Positions 7,437 to 13,890 of a stretch of DNA of 33,508 nucleotides are shown here, in pieces. This DNA comes from an uncultured Alphaproteobacteria bacterium (GTDB taxonomy: Bacteria; Pseudomonadota; Alphaproteobacteria; Sphingomonadales; SMXR01). Made by a program: the position numbers and the translations under genes. The notes under the pieces were generated by a model. That model saw nothing but the letters and a program-made list of their open reading frames with translations, had not been told where the DNA came from and did not search any database. The stretch is taken from contig CAKZLM010000040.1 of assembly GCA_937126915.1 (NCBI GenBank), positions 1-33,508 of the forward strand, read 5' to 3'. The number at the start of each line of letters is the position of its first letter. Position 1 is the stretch's first letter.

Positions 7437-9187
7437 ATATCTTTAACTATTTCAGCGACATTATCGAAAATGTCGTTAGCACATTAAGCCAATCAGGCGA
7501 TTTGCCTGAGGGTATGGACCTTAGTAAAATGTCGGTTGAAGCGCCGCGTGATAAATCACATGGCGATATCGCTGCTAATACGGCGATGGTGTTAACCAAG
7601 CAAGCGCGCCGTAACCCGCGCGAAATTGCCCAGTTGATCACTGATATGCTGTCCGAACATGAAGATGTTGAAAGCGTTGAAATTGCGGGACCTGGCTTCA
7701 TTAACATGCGCCTAAGCGATGGTTTTTGGCAGCGTCGTGTGCTTGAGATTTTAGCTGCAGGCACCGACTATGGTTCATCTACTATGGGTGATAATCAAAA
7801 GGTTAATGTTGAATATGTCTCTGCCAACCCAACGGGGCCTTTACATGTTGGTCACGTTCGTGGCGCGGTTTTTGGTGATGCCTTGGCAAATTTGCTTGCA
7901 AAAGCAGGTTATGATGTAACCAAAGAATATTATATCAATGATGCAGGATCGCAAATTGATACCTTGGCGCGTTCTGCCCACCTTCGTTATCAAGAAGCGC
8001 ACGGCCGCGACATTGGTGAAATTCCTGAAGGTCTTTATCCAGGTGATTATTTGATCAGCGTGGGGCAATATTTAAAAGAAACCTATGGCGATCAATATCT
8101 TGATAAAGATGAGGCTGAATGGTTGGCCTTGTTTAAGGATGAAGCCAGCAGCAAAATGATGGATTTGGTGCGTGAGGATCTTGCAGCGCTTGGCATTAAG
8201 CAAGATGTTTATTTCTCAGAAAAGTCGCTTCATGACACTGGTCGTATCAATGAGTGTATTGAAGAATTAACCGAAGCAGGTTTGATATATCAAGGTGTTT
8301 TAGAGCCGCCTAAAGGTAAAACCCCCGAAGACTGGGAACCGCGCCCTCAAACCCTTTTTAAAGCCACTGATTTTGGTGATGATATTGACCGAGCCTTGGT
8401 TAAAAGTGATGGGTCATACACCTATTTCGCAGCTGATATTGCTTATCACTTTGATAAGGTAAAGCGCGGCTTTATGCAGCAAATTGATGTGTTGGGTGCT
8501 GATCATGGTGGTTATGTAAAACGCTTGCAGGCGGCGGTTAAGGCCACATCCAACAATCAAGCATCGTTAGATGTGCGTTTGTGTCAAATGGTACGCTTGT
8601 TCCGTAATGGTGAACCTTTGAAAATGTCAAAACGTGCTGGTAACTTTGTCACCTTACGTGATTTGATCACAGAAGTTGGCCGTGATGTAACGCGCTTCAT
8701 TATGTTAACGCGTAAAAATGATGCCTCTTTGGATTTTGACTTTACCAAGGTGCAAGAACAATCAAAAGATAACCCAGTGTTTTATGTGCAATATGCCCAC
8801 GCTCGCGTTCATTCTGTTATGAAAAAGGCTGTGGTGGCATTTCCATCGCTTGATACCAGCGATGCGGCCTTGCAATCAGCGGATATTTCCTTGTTAACTG
8901 ACCCGTCTGAGTTGGACATGATCAAAAACATGGCCTCATGGCCACGTCTATTAGAGGCTGCTGCTGAGGCCCATGAGCCACATCGCATTGCCTTCTATCT
9001 TTATGATTTAGCGTCAGAATTGCACAGTCTTTGGAATAAGGGCAATGATCAGGTTGATTTACGCTTCATTATTGAAGATAATGAAGACATCACTAAAGCG
9101 CGTATGGCTTTGATTCGCTCGGTTGCTTTAGTGATTGCGTCTGGTTTATCAATTCTGGGCGTTGAACCCGTTGAGGAGATGCATTAA
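7433..9187 (+). CDS. argS: Arginine--tRNA ligase
   Basis: This 584-aa class Ia synthetase charges tRNA-Arg. The HIGH motif is H138-V-G-H141 in [15 protein letters not shown], and the second signature is K397-M-S-K-R. The N-terminal Arg-tRNA-synt additional domain (residues 1 to about 100, ending in [10 protein letters not shown]) and the C-terminal DALR anticodon domain ([12 protein letters not shown] onward) are complete, and length is usual. It overlaps dgt upstream by 4 nt and the SPOR gene downstream by 1 nt (TAATG), so the group is one operon. Confidence 0.97.
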
Positions 9188-10116
9188 TGGTTGGCCAAGA
9201 TCGCCAAGATAATAGCACTGCAGACGAGGGAAATGCCCCTTGGTTGCAAGAGGTTCCTGAGGAAACCGATGTGTTGCTACAATCGGGCGGTCGTCCTATT
9301 GGAACCATTTTTATCAGCTTGATATTTTTGGGGGTTTTTACAGGGCTAATCTACTGGCTGTACAATAAAGCCAATGATGGCGCCCTTAGCGATGATGCCA
9401 TTCAGGTGGCCATTGTCAGCCCGCCAGATACACCGATAAAGGTAGAGCCTGAAGATCGTGGCGGCTTGCGAGTGCCAGACCGTGATAAGCTAATTTTTGA
9501 CGGCATTAGCGGCAAAAACGACAACCAAGTTGAAAATATTCAGCCAGTACCTGAACAACCCGTTGCGCGTCCTGTAGCGCAGGGTGAGCAAATCACCACC
9601 AATGCTGATGAAGGGACAAAAGAGGCGGAAAGCCAACCAGCGCCTAATACTCCAACCGTTGAAGATATGGTTGCTGAAATTAATGAGGGGTCAAGGGCGG
9701 AAAGTCCTGCATCGACAGCGACAAATCAAGCCCCTGCGGCAGATAATAACACCCAGCCTGTAGCAACATCGCCAACATCTAGCCCGCCTGTTGCGGCAAA
9801 GGTTGTTGAAGAAGAAGTGCTGCCGGCAACTGAGCCAACGGTAGCGTTACCTGCCATTCCTGAAGGTAGCTTCCTTATTCAACTTGGAGCATTTGGGAAA
9901 AAAGAAAGTGCTGAAGCAGCATGGATGAATTTTCAAGAGCGTTTCCCTGTGGCGTTACGTAATTTAAGCACCAATATCAGTGGGGTAAATATTGGCCGTA
10001 GCAATCAGTTGTATCGCCTACAGGCGGGGCCATTTGCCACTCGTTCATCGGCTGATCGAACATGTCGTACCATTAAAGACCAAAAGCAAGCGTGTATTGT
10101 CATCGCGCCAAAATAA
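9187..10116 (+). CDS. SPOR-domain inner-membrane protein
   Basis: This 309-aa bitopic protein has a short cytoplasmic N-terminus, one membrane helix (about residues 37-60, TIFISLIFLGVFTGLIYWLY), a long P/A/T/E-rich periplasmic linker (about 75-220) and a C-terminal SPOR domain (about 227-309, beginning SFLIQLGAFGKKESAEAAW and ending CRTIKDQKQACIVIAPK). SPOR domains bind denuded glycan strands at the division site, so this is probably a septal peptidoglycan-binding factor. Such a gene between argS and nagZ is standard in alphaproteobacteria. It overlaps the argS stop by 1 nt. Confidence 0.88.
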   Translation: MVGQDRQDNSTADEGNAPWLQEVPEETDVLLQSGGRPIGTIFISLIFLGVFTGLIYWLYNKANDGALSDDAIQVAIVSPPDTPIKVEPEDRGGLRVPDRDKLIFDGISGKNDNQVENIQPVPEQPVARPVAQGEQITTNADEGTKEAESQPAPNTPTVEDMVAEINEGSRAESPASTATNQAPAADNNTQPVATSPTSSPPVAAKVVEEEVLPATEPTVALPAIPEGSFLIQLGAFGKKESAEAAWMNFQERFPVALRNLSTNISGVNIGRSNQLYRLQAGPFATRSSADRTCRTIKDQKQACIVIAPK

Positions 10117-10146: not shown

Positions 10147-11178
10147 GTGACATCAATTCAATCTGCGATTTATGGCTGTGCCTCAACAAGCTTAAGCGAT
10201 GCTGAAAAATCATTCTTCAAAGAGAGCAACCCTGTTGGTCTAATACTGTTTGCGCGAAACATTGATAATCCCAATCAATTGAAGATGTTAGTTGATGAAT
10301 TTAAAGTAACTATTAGCCATGATCACCCCTTAATTTTGGTTGACCAAGAAGGCGGTCGTGTTCAACGTATGACCAGCCCTCATTGGCGTAAAGCTCCTGC
10401 TTTGGGGTTGTTTTCTGATCAAGATGCTGATTATGAAGCCATGGCGAAAAAGGCGCTTGATCACAATATTCGTTTATTAGCCCGTGATTTGGTTGAGGTG
10501 GGCATCAATGTAGATTGCTTGCCTTTGCTTGATGTTATTATGGATGGTGCTGATAATATTATTGGTGACCGCGCCTTTGGCTCAAATCCTGACATTGTTA
10601 GCAAATATGGCAAAGTGGTGATTGATGCTTTGTTGGATGAGGGGGTTTTGCCGATCATAAAACACATTCCAGGGCACGGCCGTGCTATGGTTGATAGTCA
10701 CCTTGATTTGCCGGTTGTGGCAGCCACTTTGGAAGACCTTGTGGAAACTGATTTTAAGCCTTTTAAAGCACTATCAGATGCCCCTTTAGCAATGACCGCG
10801 CATATTATTTATCAGGCCATTGATCCCGATAACTGCGCTACTCAGTCCTCTGCGGTTATTCAAGAGATTATCCGTGATCATATAGGCTTTTCGGGGCTTT
10901 TAATGTCAGATGATTTGAGCATGAAAGCTTTAAAAGGGTCCATGGCTGAGCGATCATTGCGTTCTTTAGAGGCGGGTATTGATCTATTGCTTCATTGTAA
11001 TGGTGATATGGCTGAAATGCAGGATATCGCTAGTGTTGCAAGGCCGCTTAGTATTGAGCAAGTTGAAAAGCTTATTGCCATGCATAACCAAACCAATTCA
11101 GGCAGTGATCAATCCACGGACATTTTGTTGAATGATTATCATTCATTGGCAGAAACCCTTGGTATCGAGCCGCAATAG
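10147..11178 (+). CDS. nagZ: Beta-N-acetylhexosaminidase (NagZ, glycoside hydrolase family 3)
   Basis: This 343-aa cytoplasmic enzyme removes GlcNAc from anhydro-muropeptides in peptidoglycan recycling. Motifs are LVDQEGGRVQRM, the GH3 NagZ signature KHIPGHGRAMVDSH (K172-H173, with the flexible-loop Asp-Ser-His), and SDDLSMKAL with the nucleophile in the D255-D256 pair. The start is a GTG at 10147 with GGGGCGGGG just upstream, a strong purine-rich ribosome site; no suitable ATG lies nearby. It follows the SPOR gene by 30 nt and precedes the S2P-like gene by 21 nt. Confidence 0.95.
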   Translation: MTSIQSAIYGCASTSLSDAEKSFFKESNPVGLILFARNIDNPNQLKMLVDEFKVTISHDHPLILVDQEGGRVQRMTSPHWRKAPALGLFSDQDADYEAMAKKALDHNIRLLARDLVEVGINVDCLPLLDVIMDGADNIIGDRAFGSNPDIVSKYGKVVIDALLDEGVLPIIKHIPGHGRAMVDSHLDLPVVAATLEDLVETDFKPFKALSDAPLAMTAHIIYQAIDPDNCATQSSAVIQEIIRDHIGFSGLLMSDDLSMKALKGSMAERSLRSLEAGIDLLLHCNGDMAEMQDIASVARPLSIEQVEKLIAMHNQTNSGSDQSTDILLNDYHSLAETLGIEPQ

Positions 11179-11199: not shown

Positions 11200-11880
11200 A
11201 TGTTAGAGCAAATGATACAATCATTATTGGTTTGGGTGTTACCAGCCTTTTTAGTGGCAACGTCGCGCGAAGCTTTTCGCAATCAAGTGATATATTGGAT
11301 GGGGGATAATACCCCAAAAGCAGAAGATCGCCTTGGTTTTGCCCTCACCAAACAAATTGATCCAATGGGCACCATCGCGGCCCCCGTAATTATGTCTTTG
11401 TCAAGTGGGCCACCGCTTGCGTGGGGACTAAAAACACCTATTAAACCTAGCAATTATAAAGGTAATAAAAAATTAGCGGCTATATTAGTAGCTCTTTCTG
11501 GATCAGCTTTTTGTTTGGTGGTGGCTTTTTTGACTATGCTCATTTTACCGCTGTTTGCTGATCTTATTCCTAACTTTATGGCTGACTGGTTGCTGAACAA
11601 CATCAGTAATTTTATTTTTCTTAATTGTGTGTTGGCGATCTTCCATTTGTGGCCGATTTTACCGCTTGATGGCGGTTGGATTGTGTCTGCGCTTCTGCCG
11701 CATAATATGGCGGCTAAATATCAGCAAATTGAAGAGTATGGCATTTTAATTTTGGTGGTCATCATTATGATTTTGCCAGTTATGCGCCAATATATAGGTG
11801 TAAATATTCCACTAGATCAATGGCTTTTATGGCAACCCGCTTATGATTTATTTAATCTATTGCGTTCTGTGGCGCTATAA
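11200..11880 (+). CDS. Site-2-protease (M50) homologue lacking zinc-binding histidines
   Basis: This 226-aa membrane protein follows the bacterial M50B/S2P plan closely: a first helix, then SREAFRNQVIYWMGDNTPK, then IDPMGTIAAPVIM, PLAWGLKTPIKPSNYKGNKK, LAAILVALSGS, FHLWPILPLDGGW and YGILILVVIIMI. In active members the first block is HExxH followed by a xGD turn; here it reads R23-E24-A-F-R27, so both zinc histidines are arginines while E24 and the later D157 of LDGG are kept. The substitutions are seen directly; loss of protease activity is inferred. The reading frame is intact and base use matches the neighbours, so it is a maintained gene. It lies between nagZ and scpA (gaps of 21 and 15 nt) in the same operon. 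Confidence 0.85.
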   Translation: MLEQMIQSLLVWVLPAFLVATSREAFRNQVIYWMGDNTPKAEDRLGFALTKQIDPMGTIAAPVIMSLSSGPPLAWGLKTPIKPSNYKGNKKLAAILVALSGSAFCLVVAFLTMLILPLFADLIPNFMADWLLNNISNFIFLNCVLAIFHLWPILPLDGGWIVSALLPHNMAAKYQQIEEYGILILVVIIMILPVMRQYIGVNIPLDQWLLWQPAYDLFNLLRSVAL

Positions 11881-11895
11881 GGGAAACTAGCCATT

Positions 11896-12708
11896 ATGAC
11901 GCAATCCAATGAAACATTAAATTTTGAAGATCCGGTTCGCACCGCGCCTGAACTTGATGATCCTCATAAATTGGTCTTGAACCTTGAAGGTTTTGAAGGT
12001 CCGTTGGATGTGTTATTAACCCTAGCTCGTGCGCAAAAGGTTGATTTGTCACAAATCTCGATGGTGGAACTGGTTGAGCAATATTTGGTGTTTGTGGCTG
12101 AGGCTAAAAGATTACGCCTAGAATTAGCGGCTGATTATTTGGTGATGGCTGCATGGCTTGCTTATCTTAAATCACGACTATTAATTCCGCGCGATGAAGA
12201 GGAAGAAGGCCCAAGTGCTGAAGAATTGGCCCTTAGACTACAGCTTCGTCTTCAACGCCTTGAAGCCATGCGTGAGGCGGGGGCGCGCCTGATGTCACGC
12301 AATGTACTAGGGCGTGATGTGTTTAAGCGTGGGGACCCACAAAATGTGGTTGTTTTAAAAACCGCCGCTTATGACGTGACCCTATATGAACTGTTAAAAG
12401 CCTATGCAGAACAACGGGTTAAAACCAGTGTTAGCAGCTTAAAAATTGCCATCCGCCCTGTGATGCCACTGGAAGATGCCCTAAATCGTTTATCCCACTT
12501 ATTGGGAACAAAGGTTGATTGGTGCAGCTTGGAAGATTTTTTACCAAAAGATAAGACAGACAATCAATATCGCAAATCAGCACTTGCCAGTATGTTTGCT
12601 GCTAGTTTAGAACTAGCACGGCAGGGAAAAGCTGATATCAGTCAAAACAAAACCTATGGCCCCTTGTTTTTAAAACCAAAAGCAGGCCGCGATGATGACA
12701 TTGACTAA
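11896..12708 (+). CDS. scpA: Segregation and condensation protein A (kleisin)
   Basis: This 270-aa protein is the kleisin subunit of the bacterial Smc-ScpAB condensin. The conserved N-terminal block LEGFEGPLDVLLTLARAQKV is followed by DLSQISMVELVEQYL, LELAADYLVMAAWLAYLKSR (the Smc neck-binding helix) and a C-terminal winged-helix part (ASMFAASLELARQGKADISQ). Its stop is inside the first copy of a 23-bp tandem duplication that also carries the scpB start. The smc gene is not in the window. Confidence 0.95.
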   Translation: MTQSNETLNFEDPVRTAPELDDPHKLVLNLEGFEGPLDVLLTLARAQKVDLSQISMVELVEQYLVFVAEAKRLRLELAADYLVMAAWLAYLKSRLLIPRDEEEEGPSAEELALRLQLRLQRLEAMREAGARLMSRNVLGRDVFKRGDPQNVVVLKTAAYDVTLYELLKAYAEQRVKTSVSSLKIAIRPVMPLEDALNRLSHLLGTKVDWCSLEDFLPKDKTDNQYRKSALASMFAASLELARQGKADISQNKTYGPLFLKPKAGRDDDID

Positions 12709-12749
12709 TCTGTGGTAAATATGGGGACTAATCTGAGGAAAATATGGGT
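12704..12749 (+). repeat. 23-bp tandem duplication across the scpA/scpB junction
   Basis: Two adjacent copies, 12704-12726 and 12727-12749, match at 20 of 23 positions. Each has ACTAATCTG, a GG-containing purine run and AATATGGG. The first copy contains the scpA stop (12706-12708); the second supplies the AGGAAA ribosome site and the ATG of scpB at 12744. The ATG of the first copy (12721) opens a 10-codon frame whose TGA (12751-12753) overlaps a second in-frame scpB ATG at 12750. Confidence 0.85.
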
Positions 12750-13520
12750 ATGAGTGATCAACAAACAGAAGAAGAGGGTATTGTAAATGCCCCTGAATCA
12801 GAAAGGCCTTATGACGAAAGTGCGATTGAGCATCGTCGTATGATAGAGGCTTTGTTGTTTGCCTCATCCGAACCCTTATCCGTTGGTCAAATTGCCTCGC
12901 GTTTACCTGAGGATGCTGATATTGAGGCGCATATAACAGACTTGGTTGAGGATTTTGCCAATCGTGGAGTACAATTGGTGGAAGTTGGGGGGAAATGGCA
13001 ATTTAGAACCGCCCCGGATTTGTCCTTTCTTTTGCGTCGTGAAATGGAGGAACAACGTAAATTATCCCGTGCGGGCGTTGAGACACTGGCCATTATTGCG
13101 TATCATCAGCCGGTAACTCGTGCGGAAATTGAAGAAATACGTGGTGTTAGCATATCCAAGGGCACTATGGATGTTTTAATTGAGGCTGGCTGGATGCGCC
13201 CCATGGGCCGCCGACGCACTCCCGGGCGCCCAATGACTTATGGCACCACCGAAGAATTTTTGGTGCATTTTGGCCTAAGTGATATCAAGGACTTACCTGG
13301 TATTGAAGAGCTGAAAGCCGCTGGATTATTAGACAGTGTTGATATTGCGCTTGATAAAATGGGCGATGATATTCTTGATGTCGCCCGTGATGATAGCCAA
13401 ATGGATTTAGAAGAGGCCATCGCGGCAAAATTAAAAGAGAAAACTGAGGAATTGGTGGGGGGTGATATTTTTGACCCCGCAACCGATCAAGAAGTGGGGG
13501 ATGATGATCCACTTTATTAA
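12744..13520 (+). CDS. scpB: Segregation and condensation protein B
   Basis: This 258-aa partner of ScpA forms a dimer of winged-helix proteins that binds the ScpA kleisin in the Smc complex. Family marks are HRRMIEALLFASSEPLSVGQ near residue 30, RREMEEQRKLSRAGVETLAI, AYHQPVTRAEIEEIRGV and GRRRTPGRPMTYGTTEEFLVHFGL. The acidic C-terminus (from about residue 205) is variable in the family. Either ATG 12744 or ATG 12750 may be used. AGGAAA is very close to the first (about 4 nt) and better spaced for the second (about 10 nt), so 12750 is a real alternative. Confidence 0.95.
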   Translation: MGMSDQQTEEEGIVNAPESERPYDESAIEHRRMIEALLFASSEPLSVGQIASRLPEDADIEAHITDLVEDFANRGVQLVEVGGKWQFRTAPDLSFLLRREMEEQRKLSRAGVETLAIIAYHQPVTRAEIEEIRGVSISKGTMDVLIEAGWMRPMGRRRTPGRPMTYGTTEEFLVHFGLSDIKDLPGIEELKAAGLLDSVDIALDKMGDDILDVARDDSQMDLEEAIAAKLKEKTEELVGGDIFDPATDQEVGDDDPLY

Positions 13521-13550
13521 ATAAAGCTGGATTATGATAGAATTAGCGCT

Positions 13551-13591
13551 TGGTGTTTTGGGAAATATTAGATAATCTCGCCCAAACACCA
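13551..13591 (+). other. Inverted repeat between scpB and tatA
   Basis: The arms TGGTGTTTTGGG (13551-13562) and CCCAAACACCA (13581-13591) pair over 11 bp with one bulged T and an 18-nt loop. Directly after it is a small ATCAA/TTGAT hairpin (13591-13604) followed by AATTTT. There is no clear T run behind the large hairpin. It may be a weak terminator or an mRNA processing or stability element that separates tatABC expression from scpAB. Confidence 0.5.
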
Positions 13592-13622
13592 TCAAGCATT
13601 TGATAATTTTGGGAGAAACATA

Positions 13623-13859
13623 ATGGGTTTAAGCTTACCACAAATTTTAATCGTTGTGGCTTTATTGATCTTGCTTTTTGGTCGTGGCAAAATTTCCGCT
13701 CTGATGGGTGATGTTGCTAAGGGTATAAACGCCTTTAAATCTGGCCTTAAAGATGGTGGTGATGAAAAAGCTGATGATGACAAGGAAGAACCTAAGGTTA
13801 TTTCTGCCCAAAAGTCAGAAACAGTTTCTTCTGAAAAAGAAAAATCAAAAGCCGACTAA
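13623..13859 (+). CDS. tatA: Sec-independent protein translocase TatA
   Basis: This 78-aa protein forms the pore-like oligomer of the twin-arginine translocase. It has one short membrane helix (about residues 7-22, [14 protein letters not shown]), the F-G hinge in [18 protein letters not shown], an amphipathic helix to about residue 42, and a charged, disordered C-terminus. GGGAGA is about 7 nt upstream of the ATG. It is followed by tatB and tatC in the standard order. Confidence 0.93.
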
Positions 13860-13890
13860 GTTTCTCACCCTTTAAAACGGAATCTTTTTC

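Follow-up and report, generated by a model that had tools for sequence, protein, structure and literature searches.

A site-2 protease homologue without HExxH between nagZ and scpA

The DNA analysed here, which we call the window, is a stretch of 33,508 nucleotides from an uncultured alphaproteobacterium whose genus is represented by one genome. On its forward strand, between nagZ and scpA, lies a gene for a 226-residue homologue of the site-2 proteases (S2Ps). The features on which the analysis rests are the following:

9187-10116, forward strand: gene for a SPOR-domain protein (Pfam SPOR; synteny)
10147-11178, forward strand: nagZ, glycoside hydrolase family 3, the upstream neighbour (Pfam GH3; synteny in 20 regions)
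11200-11880, forward strand: putative pseudo site-2 protease, an M50B homologue without HExxH, 226 aa (intact open reading frame; Pfam M50, E 1.2e-7; S2P fold)
11266-11280, forward strand: REAFR (residues 23-27) replacing HExxH (direct reading; aligns with HEA[AG]H of orthologues)
11500-11514, forward strand: GSAFC (residues 101-105) replacing the conserved GPxxN (orthologue comparison)
11665-11676, forward strand: LDGG (residues 156-159), kept, with D157 at the position of the third zinc ligand (direct reading)
11896-12708, forward strand: scpA, the downstream neighbour (Pfam SMC_ScpA; synteny)
12744-13520, forward strand: scpB (Pfam SMC_ScpB; synteny)

The S2P frame is open from ATG to TAA, with nagZ ending 21 bases upstream and scpA beginning 15 bases downstream, which bears out the original prediction of an intact frame packed tightly between these two genes. 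Further downstream, between scpB and tatA (13521-13890), some 370 bases carry no listed frame. The window's genome has a single copy of this S2P subfamily, and an RseP-like protein is its only other M50 member above the cut-off; this rules out the idea of a dead copy regulating an active paralogue from its own subfamily.

Assignment of the window protein to peptidase family M50 came from profile and structure comparisons. Pfam Peptidase_M50 (PF02163) matches it at 31.7 bits (cut-off 27.2; E 1.2e-7); a TatC profile match (20.8 bits vs a cut-off of 132.7) was rejected as a membrane-helix match. A phmmer search of the PDB with the single window sequence gave no match, and a profile of the active orthologues retrieved Methanocaldococcus jannaschii S2P (mjS2P; MJ0392, PDB 3b4r), RseP and SpoIVFB (8vjl, 8vjm). 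The structure predicted for the window protein from a shallow alignment (four viral-contig S2Ps) has a mean pLDDT of 78, and VIA-align matched this model to RseP (Z 11.6), mjS2P (11.0) and SpoIVFB (9.2); the top six structural matches are all S2P chains (Z 11.6 to 8.3), and the first unrelated fold follows at 5.7. Foldseek alone gave a weak signal, its best match being mjS2P at E 0.04. By descent and fold, the window protein belongs to peptidase family M50, the site-2 proteases. It has the S2P membrane core in common with mjS2P and SpoIVFB, but these are zinc proteases, whereas the window protein lacks the zinc-ligand histidines and a CBS domain.

Zinc in SpoIVFB is held by H43, H47 and D137 (PMC9042235). 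The corresponding positions in the window protein are residues 23 and 27, ancestrally histidine, and Asp157. As had been predicted, both zinc histidines of HExxH are arginines, R23 and R27 (CGC at 11266-11268 and at 11278-11280), and both E24 (codon GAA) and the D157 of LDGG are retained. The further claim that the whole M50B layout is kept holds for the S2P fold and LDGG, but not for several other motifs: GPxxN has been replaced, GYAKPV is gone, the NPxxH part of NPxxHIDPxGT is lost (ALTKQIDPMGT), and the Asn preceding PxxPLDGG has become His (FHLWPILPLDG vs the FNxxPxPPLDG context). Altogether, 18 of 43 near-invariant columns are altered. Measured against an active M50 zinc protease, the window protein lacks HExxH, GPxxN and the FNxxPxPPLDG context and keeps the Asp of LDG.

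Because E24 and D157 are retained, one might suppose that the protein still cuts, through other chemistry or other metal ligands. We regard this as very improbable, since arginine is not known to act as a zinc ligand in metalloproteases, and two elements of the active-site surroundings, GPxxN and the Asn preceding LDGG, have been lost as well. It is hardly credible that the motif arose through an error of sequencing or assembly. The assembly is of metagenome type, in 176 contigs, and offers no second copy for comparison, but two separate His-to-Arg changes and several motif losses inside one intact frame do not amount to one sequencing error, and RExxR also occurs in single-contig assemblies, G010 and G075 among them. 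Read in this way, the sequence supports an intact pseudo-S2P.

Orthologues at the same locus carry HExxH

The gene order erpA-dgt-argS-SPOR-nagZ-S2P-scpA-scpB-tatA-tatC-serS-surE is the same in 20 regions, as far as each contig or stretch reaches. All six orthologues found within the window's own family carry HEA[AG]H (one further genome of this family, 71% complete, gave no match), and HExxH is present in 117 of 118 complete orthologues from other orders of the class; the orthologue at L167 is cut off by a contig end. The lone exception, L172 (genome G468), reads SEIIR for HExxH and ISGG for LDGG, so that the Asp ligand is lost too; the stretch examined around it showed no nagZ and no scpA. 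Since syntenic orthologues carry HExxH, RExxR is, among the sequences compared, no general trait of the nagZ-scpA locus, and the idea of a pseudoenzyme conserved across it is not supported.

These direct orthologues, minimal M50B S2Ps of the same class that have no extra domain, share with the window protein the locus, the fold, LDGG, a GD loop and the IDPxGT core. They differ from it in having HExxH, GPxxN and FNxxPxPPLDGG; of these, LDGG at the end of the last motif is all that remains in the window protein. Close relatives of the window protein were found neither in the GTDB genome collection, queried with the S2P protein and ScpB, nor among viral contigs.

Other arrangements were observed along the way. 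In family f5 (L075-L078, L080-L082; L054-L056, L062-L064), the short interval from nagZ to scpA contains no S2P match, and an active S2P (HEVAHG, PPFDG) is located elsewhere in several genomes. The S2P matches of L168 (G537) and L169 (G403) contain an in-frame TAA and keep HExxH, which may be true decay; the ScpA match of L081 (G011), a single-contig genome, contains an internal TGA. Active S2P genes are also present on four IMG/VR contigs filed as viral (L233-L236); the S2P of L235 is directly followed by a ScpA-like sequence, so that at least this contig looks like bacterial chromosome.

Basic residues recur at both histidine positions in a related family

In f4, a family of the same order as the window, HExxH has been lost at the same locus in 14 of 29 genomes. 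The replacement motifs are REALR (8), REAGR (2), REAAR (1), REAAK (2) and PVIVQ (1), with basic residues at both His positions in 13 of the 14 dead forms; replacement of a single His was not seen among the sequences compared. All 15 pseudo forms of the order (f4 and the window) retain D157, and all but PVIVQ retain E24.

Codons at the f4 arginine positions (CGT, CGC, CGG, AGG, AGA) vary synonymously, so that arginine itself is held while the codon drifts. For the one pair of f4 dead forms close enough to measure, dN is 0.008 and dS 0.417, giving a dN/dS of about 0.02, a ratio as low as that in pairs of active forms. Judged by this retention of arginine despite codon drift and by the low dN/dS, the f4 dead forms are maintained proteins. 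We place the window protein and the f4 forms among the pseudo-intramembrane proteases; what is unusual is that RExxR recurs at a single locus.

Origin of the replacement

An S2P protein tree built without the motif columns places the window protein outside a clade that joins the active and dead forms of f4, L071 excepted (support 100/100). The marks HADPIWTG and GQAKP of f4 are likewise absent from the window protein. As the gene trees set it apart from the f4 group, the RExxR swap probably arose at least twice. Both observations speak against a single ancestral pseudo-S2P that gave rise to the f4 pseudo forms as well as the window gene, by retention or transfer and without separate losses. 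We consider such an origin distinctly unlikely, even though forcing all dead forms into one clade is disfavoured rather than firmly rejected (p-AU 0.073) and transfer or differential retention does occur: the REALR forms of f4, one lineage in the S2P tree, are scattered in a tree of NagZ and ScpA (one-clade test p 0.0002).

Conversely, the pairings given by the flanking genes are rejected by the S2P tree (p 0.001, 0.0005 and 1e-6). Within f4, it seems that species have exchanged the dead form at this position, or that ancient variation was sorted among them; the long branches make caution advisable here.

Erosion of the window protein is concentrated in its catalytic half

Relative to its own family, identity in the catalytic half of the window protein (residues 19-122) has fallen to 45% of what is expected, and that in residues 123-226 stands at 81%. 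The contrast between halves has a permutation p of 5e-5; all six same-family controls were non-significant at 0.05. The neighbouring proteins have changed at a near-normal pace (NagZ 47% against 50%, ScpA 57% against 59%). The core and C-terminal half of the f4 forms are eroded about equally, so the pattern of the window is not general. Uniform or neutral decay would lower both halves alike; the uneven erosion favours, without proving, the view that the window protein has lost catalysis but retains some other function.

Lineage-specific decay would instead mean that the protease was no longer needed, that its zinc site disappeared and that the gene has been drifting, its frame still unbroken. 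Such a history would suit the HExxH kept by six of six same-family orthologues and the change in 18 of 43 near-invariant columns, and the very long S2P branch of the window (about 3.1 changes per site) is expected under strongly relaxed constraint. It sits less well with a frame that is intact despite the divergence (in simulated neutral drift to about 56% identity, a stop-free frame was left in about 1% of runs, frameshifts not counted), with erosion concentrated in the catalytic half, and with the same double swap to basic residues being present and maintained in f4. We therefore think decay rather unlikely. The fallback offered with the original prediction, local decay or a sequencing error, is a poor fit to the recurrence of RExxR/RExxK in f4 and to erosion mainly in the catalytic half of the window protein.

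Discussion

We consider it likely that the window gene encodes a non-proteolytic S2P homologue, derived in its lineage from the active S2P of the nagZ-scpA locus, in which the charge of arginine would stand in for zinc and membrane clients would be bound uncut. Purifying selection, evident in f4, would hold arginine at both positions in the window protein as well. R23 and R27, one turn apart on the first helix, would face E24 and D157, and could supply positive charge in place of Zn2+ and so keep the core folded. Arginine cannot bind zinc, but it offers E24 and D157 a positive charge that would be missing without it, so salt bridges from the arginines to these residues probably close the former zinc site. 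The old substrate cleft might then bind membrane clients without cutting them, by analogy with EGY3 and the iRhoms. The window S2P is joined to NagZ, ScpA and the SPOR protein by gene order, and operon position by itself does not establish a functional link.

EGY3, a pseudo-S2P of plant chloroplasts, is credited with stabilising other membrane proteins (PMC10978774). Like the window protein, it is an S2P homologue without the zinc-binding motif, and it is maintained, as the window protein probably is; unlike the window protein, it belongs to the chloroplast of plants. The iRhoms, catalytically dead intramembrane proteases that bind membrane clients (PMC3149277), are comparable only in how they work: they have a rhomboid fold and serine protease ancestry and are unrelated to the window S2P. 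The open literature searched yielded no bacterial counterpart of the plant pseudo-S2Ps and no work joining nagZ, scpA and M50. According to a review, S2P subgroups without extra domains have not been extensively characterised (PMC10202637).

A broader picture can be put forward tentatively, as possible rather than probable: that at one operon position an intramembrane protease has become an RExxR pseudoenzyme more than once, with two arginines replacing zinc, that active and dead forms replace each other between related species, and that the main job of the protein is non-proteolytic. Within one genus, active and RExxR forms make up a natural series at the same operon position, which allows a non-cutting role of this S2P to be asked about directly, and with it whether two arginines can substitute for a structural metal ion.
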